From: Gammaproteobacteria bacterium
GTDB taxonomy: Bacteria > Pseudomonadota > Gammaproteobacteria > SZUA-152
Assembly (NCBI GenBank): GCA_015487095.1
Contig: WFQM01000021.1
Span: forward strand, 1 to 41,088
DNA length: 41,088 bases
Reading direction: 5' to 3'
Part shown: piece by piece, positions 33,626 to 39,652 of the stretch
Layout of the letters: the number at the start of each line of letters is the position of its first letter
How positions within the stretch are numbered: position 1 is the stretch's first letter
Made by a program: the position numbers and the translations under genes
The notes under the pieces: generated by a model
Seen by the model: the letters and a program-made list of their open reading frames with translations, nothing else
The model's database searches: none
Told to the model about the DNA's origin: nothing

Positions 33626-35758
33626 ATGAAAAATAAACTATTGCGCATGGCCTTGCTGCTTGCCGGGCTTTTACTTGCGACACCTGTGCTGGCGGTGGTG
33701 GGTCAGACTTCGGTGCCGCCAGAAGGTGCCTACGATGGTGTGCTGGTAAAATTTAAAGCGGGCGTGAGCCAGACGCGTATGAACCGTGTTTTCAGAAGGG
33801 CGGGCAGTCAACAGCATCGGGCCTTTCGCAGTCGTCTGGTGCGAGGGTTGACTCGTGCAAGAATTGGTCGCGGCAATTCTCTGTCTGCAACATTACGCAG
33901 TTTGCGCAACAATCGTGATGTGGAATTTGCCGAACCAAATTACATACTTCACGCTTACGCGATACCTAATGACCCCCGTTTCGATTCATTGTGGGGTATG
34001 CACAATACGGGTCAGACCGGTGGTGTGGCAGATGCCGATATCGATGCACCGGAAGCCTGGGACTTGCAGACGGGCGGTGATGTGATTATCGCCGTGGTAG
34101 ATACGGGGGTGGATTACAACCACAGCGATCTATCCGGTAACATCTGGAATAACGGCGCAGAGATTCCCAATAACGGCCGTGACGATGATGGTAACGGTTT
34201 TGTGGATGATGTACGTGGTTGGGATTTTGCCAACAACGATAATAATCCCATGGATGACAATGATCACGGGACTCATTTGTCCGGCATCATTGCTGCCAAC
34301 GGTAACAATGGCTCCGGCGTGGTGGGGGTTAACTGGTCGGCGCGTATCATGCCGTTGAAATTCATGGACAGAACCGGGGCGGGCACTTCTGCCGACGCTA
34401 TTGCTGCCATCGATTACGCTGTGGCCAACGGTGCCCGGGTGATTAATGCCAGCTGGGGTGGCGGCCCTTTCAGCTCGGCCATGTTCAACGCGATCAGCGC
34501 TGCCAATGACGCTGGTGTGTTGTTTGTTGCTGCGTCAGGTAATGAGAGCAATAACAATGATCGCAATCCTAATTATCCGGCCGATTATGATTTACCGAAT
34601 GTGATTTCCGTAGCAGCGACCGATGATGCCGACACCCTGGCCGGTTTTTCCAATTTTGGAGCCAATAGTGTGGATCTGGGCGCACCGGGTGTGAGTATCC
34701 TGAGCACCGTGCGTAATAATGGCTATGCCAGCTTCAATGGCACCTCCATGGCTGCGCCGTATGTGGCCGGTGTTGCCGCATTAGTGGTAGCCGAGAATCC
34801 GAACATCAGTATTTCCGCGTTACGCGCGGCCTTGCTGGATAACACCGATTCGGTGACTGACCTGGCGGGACGTACTGCTACTGGTGGTCGATTAAATGCT
34901 TTTAAAGCACTGGGTGGTGGTACTACCCCTCCACCTCCTCCACCGACACCAGTGGTGACTGTCACCCCAGGCGACACCAACGTTATTGTGGGTGACAGCG
35001 TGCAGTTCAGCGCCAATGGTGGCAGCGCACCCTATGTTTGGTCGGTGGCGGATACCAATATCGGTAGTATCAGTGCTAATGGTAATTTCACGGGGCTTGC
35101 TATAGGCGTTACTCGTGTGAATGCCACTGATGCCAATGGTGTGCGAAGTGGTGATGCCACCGTCAGTGTGAGTGAGACTGCCGTTATTCGTATTTCACCC
35201 AACACAGTGAGCCTGCGTGTGGGCGAGAGCGTGACCCTTTCAGCCAGCGGTGGCAATGCTCCTTACAGCTGGGTTAGCAACAGTCCGGGTGTGGTGACCA
35301 TTGACGCCAGCAGTGGTGTGCTTACCGCTCAAAATACCGGGGCCACGACTGTTACAGTGACGGACAATAGTGGTAATACTGCAAATTCCGGTGCGATTAC
35401 TGTCGCTGCGGCACCGCCTCCTGTTGCTGTGTCAGTATCACCCAACAGTGGCAGTGTTGCCGTCGGAGCCACTCTGCAATTCAGTGCCAACGGCGGGAGT
35501 GCTCCGTATAGCTGGAGTGTGAGTAATGACTCCGTTGCCCGTATCGATAGTAATGGTGTGTTAACGGGACGTGCTGCAGGCAGCGTAACGGTAACGGCAC
35601 GCGATGCCAATGGTGCTATTGGTAACAGCGGCAACATCACCATCACTGCCGCCAACAACGGCGGTGGAGGTCGTGGAGGTCATGGAAGAGGCGGTCGTGG
35701 AGGCCGTGGTGGCATGGGCGGCGGCATGATGGGGGGTGGCAGGATGGGAGGCAGATAA
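33626..35758 (+). CDS. secreted subtilase with Ig-like domains and Arg/Gly-rich tail
   Basis: S8 serine protease, 710 residues. A signal peptide (1-23, ending PVLA) is followed by an I9-like propeptide (about 36-112). The peptidase domain (about 120-428) has catalytic D159 (VVDTG), H214 (DHGTH), oxyanion N306 (ASGN) and S374 (NGTSMAAP), plus a calcium-type loop (RDDDGNGFVDD, 185-195). A Pro-rich linker leads to three bacterial Ig-like (Big-2 type) repeats of about 80 residues (442-517, 518-595, 598-676). The last 33 residues are Gly/Arg/Met with RGG units and no hydrophobic anchor. Catalytic residues are intact, so an active extracellular protease is expected. It has its own terminator. Confidence 0.93.
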   Translation: MKNKLLRMALLLAGLLLATPVLAVVGQTSVPPEGAYDGVLVKFKAGVSQTRMNRVFRRAGSQQHRAFRSRLVRGLTRARIGRGNSLSATLRSLRNNRDVEFAEPNYILHAYAIPNDPRFDSLWGMHNTGQTGGVADADIDAPEAWDLQTGGDVIIAVVDTGVDYNHSDLSGNIWNNGAEIPNNGRDDDGNGFVDDVRGWDFANNDNNPMDDNDHGTHLSGIIAANGNNGSGVVGVNWSARIMPLKFMDRTGAGTSADAIAAIDYAVANGARVINASWGGGPFSSAMFNAISAANDAGVLFVAASGNESNNNDRNPNYPADYDLPNVISVAATDDADTLAGFSNFGANSVDLGAPGVSILSTVRNNGYASFNGTSMAAPYVAGVAALVVAENPNISISALRAALLDNTDSVTDLAGRTATGGRLNAFKALGGGTTPPPPPPTPVVTVTPGDTNVIVGDSVQFSANGGSAPYVWSVADTNIGSISANGNFTGLAIGVTRVNATDANGVRSGDATVSVSETAVIRISPNTVSLRVGESVTLSASGGNAPYSWVSNSPGVVTIDASSGVLTAQNTGATTVTVTDNSGNTANSGAITVAAAPPPVAVSVSPNSGSVAVGATLQFSANGGSAPYSWSVSNDSVARIDSNGVLTGRAAGSVTVTARDANGAIGNSGNITITAANNGGGGRGGHGRGGRGGRGGMGGGMMGGGRMGGR

Positions 35759-36016: not shown

Positions 36017-37012
36017 CTACCTGCCTTGAAACGATGTATAAGTTGAATAAATATTAGTTAAATAGTAATACCATCCAAGCTCTGCCGTTTTTGCACTGTT
36101 GATAGTTTCATATAAGGCTTCACCGACCAGTTCGTGTACCCGGGTTGTTGGGTGGATTTCGTCAAAGAAAACAAACTCATCAAAATTTGAACCGGAATTA
36201 CAGTCTGGGTGAAAAGTGGAGTCGGCAGAATTAAAGCAGGCATCAGTAGTATTGCTGAAACCATAACTATCAGCGTCTTCGACCAATTCGTTAAAAAAAT
36301 TGAACAGATCAAATCGGGTGATTTTGGCACGGCTTGTATATTTAAGGTATCGGGTCATTTTATACAGCTCATCTTGATACAATTTGCTGAGTGTAGTGGA
36401 GCGTTCGATGAGTCCAGGGTTATCTGTTGCAGTGGCAATTCGTCGGGTTTCAGGCATCAGGCCGATATTGGGTGAGCTGACCAGAAGAAACGAGCGAGCA
36501 CCAGCCCGGGACAGGGTTTGAATAGCCTTTCGCACTTTGGTAGCGGCAGCTTTGACCTTTGAGCGGGCAAGAATTGAAATTGTTTCACTACGGGCATCAC
36601 GAATATCATTGCCGCCAACGAAAATCACATACAGCGCATCCGCAGGTGCAATAATGTGGTTGGCCTGGAAGCTGACAATTTGGATATCAAGGTCCATAGG
36701 TTCCATGCCGGCGGCATTAGCACCTGCTACCGCATAATTACTGCCCTCGGCTGGCCCAATCAGGTGCAATGATGCCGATACCGTGTGTCCGAGTCGAGCG
36801 GCGAGTGTTTCTACGGCTACCGACCCATTGCTGATACGGTTCATGTAATAGGGCGACGGCAAGTCACCCGTTAGCGAGGCAAGATTGCCAGTATCAGACA
36901 GGCTGTCGCCAAACACGAATACCTGGCTGAATGAGACGTCTGCTGCTTGTGCCCAGCTTGATGATATGAGTAATAACAGCAAAATAAATTTAGACAGGCG
37001 AAATTTGAACAT
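36017..37012 (-). CDS. secreted SGNH/GDSL hydrolase
   Basis: Predicted exported esterase/lipase of 331 residues. A signal peptide (1-23, SSSWAQA) is followed by all four SGNH blocks: S37 in FGDSLSDTGN, G97 in NYAVAGA, N135 in VGGNDIRD, and D284/H287 in FDEIHPT. No autotransporter or anchor follows, so it is probably periplasmic or released. The substrate is unknown. The closest architecture is the GDSL group often found with PEP-CTERM proteins; this copy lacks that tag. The start region is duplicated: ribosome site plus ATG occur twice, 23 bases apart. Confidence 0.92.
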   Translation of the reverse strand: MFKFRLSKFILLLLLISSSWAQAADVSFSQVFVFGDSLSDTGNLASLTGDLPSPYYMNRISNGSVAVETLAARLGHTVSASLHLIGPAEGSNYAVAGANAAGMEPMDLDIQIVSFQANHIIAPADALYVIFVGGNDIRDARSETISILARSKVKAAATKVRKAIQTLSRAGARSFLLVSSPNIGLMPETRRIATATDNPGLIERSTTLSKLYQDELYKMTRYLKYTSRAKITRFDLFNFFNELVEDADSYGFSNTTDACFNSADSTFHPDCNSGSNFDEFVFFDEIHPTTRVHELVGEALYETINSAKTAELGWYYYLTNIYSTYTSFQGR

Positions 37013-37310: not shown

Positions 37311-37937
37311 TTAGCCGGAAGTCAACTTAATGTTACACCCATTCCGTCGGCGAAGGCCAAAAAGTGCTAATAATCCAACCCCTACCAGAAATAGGGTTTC
37401 TGGTTCAGGGATTGAGGTGGTAACGACATTGATTAATCCGGGGTTAGTACTTGTGGCTAATATCCCCCCATTCTCATCGCCCAAAAACCCACCACCAGAG
37501 ATATTCCCAGTCAGATTCAATACTGATTGCCCAACACTTAAGGCATCAAAAACCAAAGTTGCCAAAATAATGTTAGTGGTGCCAGTTTGCAGCGATGTTA
37601 AACTGGAAAGGAGAGATGACTCTGCCAGGTTTGAAGTTCCCAGGCCATTATTTGTGTTTTCACTTTGAAGCGATAATGAACCACCACCTAACGCATTGCC
37701 AAAAGAAACACTGGCAAGTGATAGAATGCTGTTATCCCAACTGACATCAAAATCAAATGCACCGATATATTCGTTTTGTAAGTTGCTTGCCACAATATTA
37801 ACGGAAGCTTGGCCGGACAACAAAATGGTTTGTGTATTTGGCGAAAAGCTCAAAATCACTGTTGCAAATACTGACTGACTTGTTATAAGCAACAAAGGTA
37901 AAATCATGCCACGTAGAATTAATTTTTTAAGCATCAT
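37311..37937 (-). CDS. PEP-CTERM protein with cohesin-like domain
   Basis: Exported protein of 208 residues. A signal peptide (about 1-25, SQSVFA) is followed by a cohesin-type beta domain (about 26-150). Its N-terminal pattern ILSFSPNTQTILLSGQASVNI and GAFDFDVSWDNSILSLASVSFG is characteristic of cohesin folds. The C-terminal sorting signal is PEP at 177-179, then a hydrophobic span, then RRR. Exosortase should recognise and cleave this tag; no exosortase gene is in the window. Ten residues follow RRR, slightly more than usual. The start is ATG 37937 with AGGAG five bases upstream. The next upstream gene ends in dockerin-like loops. Confidence 0.88.
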   Translation of the reverse strand: MMLKKLILRGMILPLLLITSQSVFATVILSFSPNTQTILLSGQASVNIVASNLQNEYIGAFDFDVSWDNSILSLASVSFGNALGGGSLSLQSENTNNGLGTSNLAESSLLSSLTSLQTGTTNIILATLVFDALSVGQSVLNLTGNISGGGFLGDENGGILATSTNPGLINVVTTSIPEPETLFLVGVGLLALFGLRRRNGCNIKLTSG

Positions 37938-37985
37938 GTGAACTCCTGTTTTTTTCATTAGGTTGCATCAGTTTTTTTTGTGAGT

Positions 37986-38029
37986 TGGCCTCAGCTTTAA
38001 TATCAAAAAAATTATCAAAACAGAGGCCA
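37986..38029. promoter_or_regulatory. inverted repeat upstream of the PEP-CTERM gene
   Basis: TGGCCTC (37986-37992) and GAGGCCA (38023-38029) are perfect complements separated by 30 A/T-rich bases, in the 119-base gap between the dockerin-like gene and the PEP-CTERM gene. It might be an operator pair or a hairpin in a shared transcript. Confidence 0.35.
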
Positions 38030-38056
38030 TTTCCTTACACACTGTTTGTTGTTCTT

Positions 38057-39490
38057 TTAAAGATCCTGGCAATTGTTTAAATCACACTGAAGCGCACATT
38101 GACGTGCATCCAGGACAGTAATGACATTGTCTTTATCCACGTCACGCGGGTCGCTTGAATCTGTTGCCGGTGTATTTCTGGCGGCAAAAATGAGCGAAAT
38201 GTCGTTTGTGTCAATATTATTGTCACCGTCAACATCACATTTCTGTATGGCCAAAACCTGTAGTGTTACCGGACATTGCACAAACCCGCCACTTGAACTG
38301 GTGGCGCTAAAACTCACCAGAACATTGCCGACCTGAGTTGCATCAGGTGTCCAGTTGAATGTGCTCGATACGGGGTTTCCTGTAATGGGCAAAACAGGTG
38401 CCATGGATGCGCCTGATGGTAATCCTGCGCTGTTTAGAGTTACCGTATCACTGGCATCCGGGTCTGACGCAACAATGCCAAATGTTAACGTATTACCCAG
38501 GGTAACAGTCTGAGTTGTATTGCAAATTGGCGGTGAACTTACAGGGGGTTGTATGACAGGTGGTGTAGGATCCACTGTGGTTAATTGTATGAAAAAATCC
38601 AGGGGCACCTTTGTGGTGCCGTCTTCTATCATTACCTGGGTAGAATACAGTGTGTTTCGTCCACGAGTCGCCAGGGTTGCACCCGCAGTGTCCCATGTAT
38701 AAATACCTGTTAACGGATCGATACTTGCGGGGTTGGGTGCATTGCTTCCTGGACTGCCGGGTTGCCTGAAACCTCCTGCCTCTGCTGATGTGGATAAACG
38801 AAATGATATTGTATCGTCATCAACGTCGGTTGCCGGGATTACAAAGCTGCATATGGCATTTATCGGGCACAAAACGACAGGGTCTTGTACGCTCGATGGG
38901 GAATTATTTCCCGCACTTAAATCAATTATCGTTTCCGTCCGATAGTTTCCATTGGAATTATTGATATGTTCGTTAGGGTTCGCGACCCGGGAAATTCTAC
39001 AACAGCTGCGTAAATATGCAGTAAATGATCCTGCGCTGTTATAGGTGTGGTTTAATATTGTATCAATTGGATCTCCTGAATTAGCTATAGGTAAGCTGGT
39101 GGGGTCCACTGCAACACCTGATAACCAGTTGTTTACCGGGTCAATAGATGTTACCAAATATAATAACGAACCAAACGGTGAGCTGACTCTGGAGCCATCA
39201 CCCCAGTTGAATCGAGAACGACCTATACGTTCAAAAATAACATCACCGACACCGGCGACACCGGCCGGGCCGGTGCATGCGGTTCTTGTCATGGAAACCA
39301 AATTTACACATTGGGAGTTATAGCCGTTTCCACGCCACGCATTCAGTAATCTTACATTTACAGAGTTTGTGGTTGTGCCAGCTGTCCATGCTATGTGTCC
39401 ATAGCGAAAGTGAGTTGCTTGTGCTGTTGCTGCGGCTAAAAAAATAATCAGAAATATTGACGACCATAGTATTGGATTTTTTTTACACAT
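38057..39490 (-). CDS. secreted protein with C-terminal dockerin-type calcium loops
   Basis: A 477-residue exported protein of unknown function. The signal peptide (1-25, AAATAQA) is followed by an unrecognised Cys-containing N-terminal domain (about 26-200, beginning THFRYGHIAWT). Cadherin/Ig-like regions (about 205-410) include VDDDTISFRLS and DPDASDTVTL, typical of putative Ig domains. The C-terminal 60 residues hold two EF-hand-like loops, DVDGDNNIDTND and DVDKDNVITVLD, with Asp at positions 1, 3, 5 and 12, flanked by cysteines, as in dockerin type I repeats. The start is ATG 39490 with AAGGAGGG 10 bases upstream. It has no PEP-CTERM tag; binding to the neighbouring cohesin-like protein is a hypothesis. 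Confidence 0.85.
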   Translation of the reverse strand: MCKKNPILWSSIFLIIFLAAATAQATHFRYGHIAWTAGTTTNSVNVRLLNAWRGNGYNSQCVNLVSMTRTACTGPAGVAGVGDVIFERIGRSRFNWGDGSRVSSPFGSLLYLVTSIDPVNNWLSGVAVDPTSLPIANSGDPIDTILNHTYNSAGSFTAYLRSCCRISRVANPNEHINNSNGNYRTETIIDLSAGNNSPSSVQDPVVLCPINAICSFVIPATDVDDDTISFRLSTSAEAGGFRQPGSPGSNAPNPASIDPLTGIYTWDTAGATLATRGRNTLYSTQVMIEDGTTKVPLDFFIQLTTVDPTPPVIQPPVSSPPICNTTQTVTLGNTLTFGIVASDPDASDTVTLNSAGLPSGASMAPVLPITGNPVSSTFNWTPDATQVGNVLVSFSATSSSGGFVQCPVTLQVLAIQKCDVDGDNNIDTNDISLIFAARNTPATDSSDPRDVDKDNVITVLDARQCALQCDLNNCQDL

Positions 39491-39652
39491 TTTCTTCGGA
39501 CCCTCCTTAAGAACTGCTTTTAACGTGTTTGCAGAAATTCCGGGCGTGCTTACAACAGCTCCAAGCATGCTTGCAGAAGTTCTAATTCAGTGAAGTCTTA
39601 AAGAAACGATCGAAAGGCGATCAGACATAAGATCCGCGATCAGCGGGTTCCA

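Follow-up and report, generated by a model that had tools for sequence, protein, structure and literature searches.

Two adjacent genes on the minus strand of a gammaproteobacterial contig (WFQM01000021.1; the whole stretch of 41,088 nucleotides analysed is hereafter called the window) are likely to encode an exosortase-anchored, portable cohesin–dockerin docking system, in which binding, calcium dependence, exosortase processing and surface location are inferred. One gene specifies a cohesin with a PEP-CTERM tail, referred to below as the anchor, and the other a secreted protein bearing a dockerin-like module, referred to as the cargo. What cohesins and dockerins do outside cellulosomes has been stated to be unknown (PMC5244752), a question on which the present pair bears: it is compact and recurrent, its anchor is defined, its cargo is interchangeable, and a swap of its partner has occurred in nature. 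The exosortase system would gain a possible job, namely the presentation of non-covalently docked cargo, and the pairs reported here are new candidates for the engineering of Gram-negative surfaces.

The two neighbouring ORFs are separated by 119 bp, the cargo gene lying upstream and the anchor gene downstream (Table 1). Good ribosome-binding sites are found at both starts: AGGAG at 37943-37947 for the anchor gene, and AAGGAGG at 39502-39508, 12 bp before the ATG at 39490, for the cargo gene. The longest ORF of the latter would begin at 39568; the start was taken at 39490, and orthologues of the protein within the genus are 80-89% identical. A family search of the window's genome recovered the cohesin domain once and the dockerin domain once. 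The RNA stem-loop between the two genes has z-scores of -2.75 to -4.72 in five genomes and a consensus stem in six genomes of the genus, with slight covariation, and no run of T follows it. Stem-loops set the ratio of components in the cip-cel cellulosome operon (PMC4423207, PMC10311766), and by analogy the one observed here could conceivably fix the ratio of cargo to anchor. After the cohesin gene comes a GDSL lipase/acylhydrolase gene with a signal peptide (36017-37012, minus strand), an arrangement also seen in genome G003. The convergent gene at 33626-35758 (plus strand) encodes a subtilase with three Big_2 Ig repeats and a Gly-rich tail, and stays beside the cohesin/dockerin pair across the genus.

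Table 1. Features of the anchor and cargo genes, with positions in the window.
Feature	Position	Strand	Basis
Anchor gene, cohesin-PEP-CTERM protein, 208 aa	37311..37937	-	ORF, Pfam, ribosome-binding site
Predicted Sec signal peptide of anchor	37863..37937	-	read from sequence
Cohesin domain	37416..37865	-	Pfam PF00963, AF2 model, PDB structural matches
PEP-CTERM exosortase sorting tail (PEP, hydrophobic helix, RRR)	37344..37415	-	PF07589
Intergenic RNA stem-loop between cargo and anchor genes	37986..38029	-	conserved in genus
Cargo gene, secreted dockerin-bearing protein, 477 aa	38057..39490	-	ORF, ribosome-binding site, orthologues
Predicted Sec signal peptide of cargo, MCKKNPILWSSIFLIIFLAAATAQA	39416..39490	-	basic start, hydrophobic core, A-x-A end
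Two Ig/cadherin-like domains of cargo	38252..38911	-	AF2 model, structural matches
Four-cysteine dockerin-like module, two Ca-loop/helix repeats, CDVDGDNNID..DARQCALQCDLNNC	38069..38239	-	conserved family, model, Pfam

The tagged domain of the anchor is predicted by modelling to adopt the cohesin fold, a β-sandwich of the jelly-roll type. The protein scores above the curated cut-offs for both Pfam Cohesin (PF00963; 28.8 bits, cut-off 24.1) and PEP-CTERM (PF07589; 30.2 bits, cut-off 20.7), and 29 of the 50 members of the cohesin family match PF00963 at E<=0.01. The AlphaFold2 model of the domain (50 sequences) has a pLDDT of 89.2, and its best PDB match in Foldseek is a C. acetobutylicum cohesin (E 4.8e-10). 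With a second structural aligner, the 50 best PDB entries were all cohesins (Z 11-17), the best being 6kgc_A (Z 17.2 over 140 residues, rmsd 2.2); PDB cohesins were also found by sequence with the family profile (best E 5.9e-6). Asp39 of the C. thermocellum cohesin contacts the Ser/Thr motif of the dockerin (PMC5772552). The strand bearing this residue aligns, by motif and by profile, with the strand motif [AS]-[FY]-D-x-[DN]-V of the present family, and the counterpart of Asp39, D62, is kept in 47 of the 50 cohesins.

The tail of the anchor combines the PEP motif with a hydrophobic helix and a basic C-terminal end. A simple P-helix-R/K rule is passed by 46 of the 50 cohesins, the four misses bearing VPEP/TPEP-type tails. 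No NCBIfam PEP-CTERM family covers the cohesin part of the protein; floc_PepA, EDSAP-1 and THxN were considered and rejected, as they match only the tail or fall far below cut-off. The genome of the window encodes the exosortase EpsH (G000 contig 44, E 2.5e-74), and an exosortase was detected in 10 of the 13 family genomes carrying the pair. The same search gave no match in the other three (G002, G018 and G021). The completeness of G002 is 99% and that of the other two 86-91%, and incompleteness is a poor explanation for the missing exosortase in G002.

The Ca-loop pattern occurs twice in the C terminus of the cargo, within a module of 58 aa whose consensus (CDVDxDGDIDxxDIxLIxAARxxxAxxPxDPRDADGDGxITxxDxRxCxxxCTxxxC) includes four conserved cysteines. 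The module is modelled at pLDDT 87-97, with one helix per repeat (residues 429-437 and 460-467; AF2). D8, D10, D12, D16 and D19 of the first loop and D39 and D50 of the second (A6 numbering) are invariant or nearly so, while D41 and D43 of the second loop alternate with N. Against Pfam Dockerin_1 (PF00404, cut-off 22.9) the cargo of the window scores only 11.1 bits as a whole and 16.7 bits as an isolated module; 64 of the 81 members of the module family match Dockerin_1 at E<=0.1 (best 5.2e-8), with EF-hand scores similar to the dockerin scores. A PDB sequence search with the module returned nothing other than calmodulin-like EF-hand noise. The preceding Ig/cadherin-like domains (residues 195-414, pLDDT mostly 70-93 in the AF2 model) match domains of cadherin and of the adhesin SraP, with Z up to 11.2, and give weak Pfam matches to Big_9/He_PIG. 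The first ~190 residues were modelled poorly; SIBA-E_N and LGFP, considered for this region, matched below cut-off and were rejected. In the Pfam scan the cargo showed no carbohydrate-active domain and, apart from the Sec signal, no visible outer-membrane export system of its own.

The first-pass annotation, made without database searches, had described a 208-residue protein combining a cohesin-type domain with an exosortase tag and, upstream on the same strand, a secreted protein with two dockerin-type calcium loops at its C terminus, neither of them looking cellulosomal. The first claim is upheld by Pfam, AF2 and the PDB matches, which also support a cohesin fold over the other folds that would have refuted the annotation. 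The second holds with the qualification that Dockerin_1 is matched at E<=0.1 by most members of the module family, the window's own module scoring below the cut-off. The third agrees with one cohesin, one dockerin and a cargo lacking carbohydrate-active domains.

The pairing of cohesin and dockerin genes is not a chance association. When each protein was searched separately in 57 related genomes, the two repeatedly adjoined, within the genus as well as elsewhere in the family, and the adjacency persists where the rest of the dockerin protein is unrelated. When only the dockerin module was used as the query against public genomes, 78 loci were recovered, spanning Gammaproteobacteria, Betaproteobacteria, Nitrospirota, Geobacteraceae, Acidobacteria and other lineages, with Roseateles, Paraglaciecola, Alteromonas and Hahella among the culturable carriers. 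A cohesin profile built without the PEP-CTERM tail was applied to all ORFs of these loci and identified 50 cohesins (weakest E 1.7e-10, next match E 1.4), 49 of which lie less than 200 bp from a dockerin gene on the same strand. An iterated profile including the tail inflated the count of pairs to 64/82, and the stricter 50 were used instead. The linkage is reciprocal: among 369 gammaproteobacterial genomes the dockerin module was found in 11 and the cohesin in 19 (E<=1e-5), and each of the 11 genomes with the module proved to be one of those 19, the two genes being adjacent. Of the other cohesin-bearing genomes, several carry beside the cohesin gene a dockerin belonging to a different class (Pfam scores as high as 39 bits); G148, a strong cohesin match, has no adjacent dockerin gene. 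A second set of 398 genomes contained 14 dockerin loci: a cohesin-like gene adjoins the dockerin gene at 11 of them, a replacement partner (see below) at one, and neither at two. Counts from these two sets are uncorrected for relatedness. Dockerin and cohesin distances are correlated (Mantel r 0.55), but shared species ancestry was not removed, and this provides minor support only.

Two reservations of the first-pass annotation bear on this result. It would have been refuted had the two genes rarely been neighbours in related genomes, and it survived this check, the genes being adjacent across many of them. It had also cautioned that dockerin-like tails are common in proteins without a cohesin partner; some dockerins are indeed without an adjacent partner (with a cohesin elsewhere in 7 of the 14 genomes concerned), yet nearly every cohesin of the 78 loci adjoins a dockerin gene. 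Its view of a system in one gammaproteobacterium was, conversely, too narrow, as the system occurs in several phyla, with cargo that is exchanged and at least one further kind of partner protein.

Other arrangements were observed in the course of these searches. Six loci (L172, L173, L182, L184, L185 and L186) have dockerins of other classes beside cohesin proteins with PEP/VPLPA-type tails, several of these dockerin proteins containing thrombospondin type 3 repeats and a GPSGL ending. Because such other classes adjoin tailed cohesins, exosortase-anchored cohesins may serve many dockerin families, although this is merely possible at present. At L175 (G263:C1:1486809-1496992) dockerin genes lie on either side of one cohesin gene, the module being C-terminal in one of the two dockerin proteins and N-terminal in the other. 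A genome of the same genus as the window (G009; contigs 5, 7, 16 and 23) encodes four dockerin proteins against two cohesins, counts from which one anchor might serve several cargos. A short contig from a gammaproteobacterial bin with 7% contamination (L183; G098:C18) contains several cohesin- and dockerin-like ORFs; it looks foreign and could be archaeal.

The cargo part of the dockerin protein is exchanged while its module is retained. The 49 cargo sequences fall into 15 clusters without detectable mutual similarity, and include IgGFc-binding-like proteins, M4 and S8 proteases, PKD/REJ and ASH/MopE repeats, and propeller-like proteins. The location of the module follows the order of the genes: it is C-terminal in all 30 pairs in which the dockerin gene comes first, and N-terminal, shortly after the protein begins, in 17 of the 20 in which the cohesin gene comes first. 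In 47 of the 50 pairs, therefore, the module occupies whichever terminus of the cargo lies towards the cohesin gene (Fisher p 1.2e-10). Because of this nearly constant placement, the cohesin gene and the dockerin module behave as if they were one mobile piece of DNA, a portable cassette in which the cargo part is replaced.

In 15 of the 78 loci, and in genome G716, the neighbour of the dockerin gene belongs to a different PEP-CTERM family without detectable similarity to cohesins (L079, L091, L093-L095, L101, L103, L109-L111, L113, L114, L117, L126 and L132; also L221:3896-4675). Its pattern is ...GDKLFDxW...ALNDGGxDPGPGL...WVTKNILVWA...QRFSQ-VPEP, no Pfam or NCBIfam family covers its body, and its carriers include Burkholderiales, Rhodocyclaceae, Accumulibacter and Hahella. 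A clear cohesin anywhere in the genome (E<1e-14) was found in only 1 of these 15 genomes, versus 7 of the 14 with an unpartnered dockerin. The dockerins differ with the neighbour: residue 52 is R in 51/51 cohesin-paired modules and K in 15/15 with the replacement partner, residue 56 is mostly L and never P with cohesins and P in 15/15 with the replacement, and with the latter residue 24 becomes S, residue 25 R or K and residue 48 P. Divergence between the partner classes averages 0.60 at loop-helix positions 10, 11, 17, 18 and 22 of each repeat and 0.18 elsewhere (MW p 6.6e-5). We take these to be the classical positions at which dockerins contact cohesins, an assignment partly supported by PMC5772552 and PMC5429695.

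Cargo families overlap between the two dockerin classes (up to 76% identity), and all 13 comparable modules resemble modules that share their partner but not their cargo (mean 65%) more closely than those that share their cargo but not their partner (mean 50%). The module therefore tracks the partner and not the cargo. The switched dockerins constitute a single clade, and the residue changes are accordingly counted as one event that spread over at least three cargo families, not as many independent ones. An hhalign comparison gave no support for the replacement partner being a hidden cohesin (probability 0.2), but the profile is shallow and divergence beyond detection remains conceivable. A bolder reading is that dockerins have a second, non-cohesin receptor, to which the contact positions have been switched; we consider it tentative and would rather lean against it. 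Before this family, to our knowledge, no dockerin receptor other than a cohesin was known, and a second receptor, if real, would amount to an experiment of nature in which the receptor of a protein docking system was exchanged.

The mechanism that we propose is as follows. The cohesin protein would be exported by Sec and retained in the membrane through the PEP-CTERM tail, and processing by the exosortase would tie it to the cell envelope or to its exopolysaccharide. The four-cysteine dockerin of the secreted neighbour, with its two Ca-loops, would then plug into the dockerin-binding face of the cohesin, so that the docked cargo would remain on the surface of the cell and not diffuse away; the cohesin gene and dockerin module would stay together as the cargo part changes. 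The first-pass annotation had likewise suggested that the tagged protein holds the dockerin protein at the surface, an idea which is now supported and still an inference. That the contact positions of the dockerin change together with its partner is strong but indirect evidence for an interface, with neither binding data nor a model of the complex; physical binding, its dependence on calcium, processing of the anchor and location on the outer face are inferred only. Several observations weigh against docking. Gene neighbours can share regulation or export without physical contact. The residue switch counts only once, and common descent contributes to the Mantel correlation. No exosortase was detected in three of the 13 family genomes with the pair, not every dockerin gene adjoins that of a partner, and how the cargo would cross the outer membrane has no explanation so far.

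The main rival to this explanation is co-export, whereby the cohesin-PEP-CTERM protein would serve as a carrier: having bound the dockerin protein in the periplasm, it would convey it by the exosortase/exopolysaccharide export route, and the complex would end up in the matrix and not on the cell. This is a real possibility: the cargo has a Sec signal alone and no visible system for crossing the outer membrane, the genes of anchor and cargo are adjacent, and PEP-CTERM proteins have been linked to exopolysaccharide systems (PMC1569441). On the other hand, processing of PEP-CTERM tails is believed to take place at the membrane, and the current data do not separate a carrier from a tether. It could alternatively be argued that the module works by itself as a Ca-binding domain, conferring stability or forming a stalk in the manner of the TSP3 type, that the cohesin binds some other target, and that the two are neighbours through an exosortase regulon. 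The subthreshold Pfam score of the window's module, the similar EF-hand scores and the abundance of Ca-loop modules without cohesins are compatible with this view, which we nevertheless regard as unlikely in light of the adjacency of 49 of the 50 cohesins despite changing cargo, the tracking of the partner type by the module and the presence of a cohesin in 11/11 dockerin genomes of the 369-genome set.

Still less probable is that the module merely needs a neighbour with a PEP-CTERM tail, the cohesin fold being incidental. The loci with the replacement family (15 and G716) speak for it, but the contact positions switch completely with the family of the neighbour, as expected for direct recognition of two receptors. 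Finally, a small non-cellulolytic complex of the cellulosome kind, with several enzymes on one scaffold, is suggested by the fact that cohesins and dockerins are parts of cellulosomes; it is made very improbable by the window's genome, in which one single-cohesin protein and one dockerin protein were found, and by cargo devoid of carbohydrate-active domains.

Returning to the docking system as the preferred interpretation, its nearest structural relatives are the type I cohesin–dockerin pairs of clostridial cellulosomes (PDB 1OHZ, 6KGC), which share the cohesin fold (Z 16-17), the Asp conserved in the contact strand, the two repeats of Ca-loop and helix, and the places at which residues depend on the partner. 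The clostridial cohesins, however, are arrayed in multi-cohesin scaffoldins of Gram-positive bacteria, whereas the pair described here consists of a single, exosortase-tagged cohesin of a Gram-negative and of a dockerin family with four conserved cysteines, located at either the N or the C terminus of cargo that is not cellulolytic. Adjacent non-cellulosomal cohesin and dockerin genes of adhesin-like character, with a proposed role in adhesion, have been described in ANME archaea and syntrophic sulfate reducers (PMC10553843, PMC5244752). These resemble the present pair in being adjacent and non-cellulosomal, but for the sulfate-reducer pairs no link to PEP-CTERM or exosortase has been reported, and neither term occurs in PMC10553843. 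The non-cellulosomal cohesin of Archaeoglobus fulgidus (PDB 2XDH) shares the fold of the window's protein (Z 15.5) and, unlike it, is archaeal; it is not known to carry an exosortase tail, nor is the dockerin of that organism known to have the four-cysteine pattern. With PEP-CTERM/exosortase surface proteins (PF07589, TIGR02595) the anchor shares a tail scoring above curated cut-offs and an exosortase encoded in the genome. In the open-access literature searched, no paper pairs PEP-CTERM with a cohesin, an earlier mention in Peer et al. 2009 (PMC3035643) not being excluded, and a 2024 survey of cellulosome-displaying bacteria mentions neither proteobacteria nor exosortase. By fold and module the pair is of the cohesin–dockerin kind, and by organisation it is not a cellulosome; the inferred docking of secreted proteins on Gram-negative cells through exosortase-anchored cohesins would represent a widespread and apparently undescribed variant.
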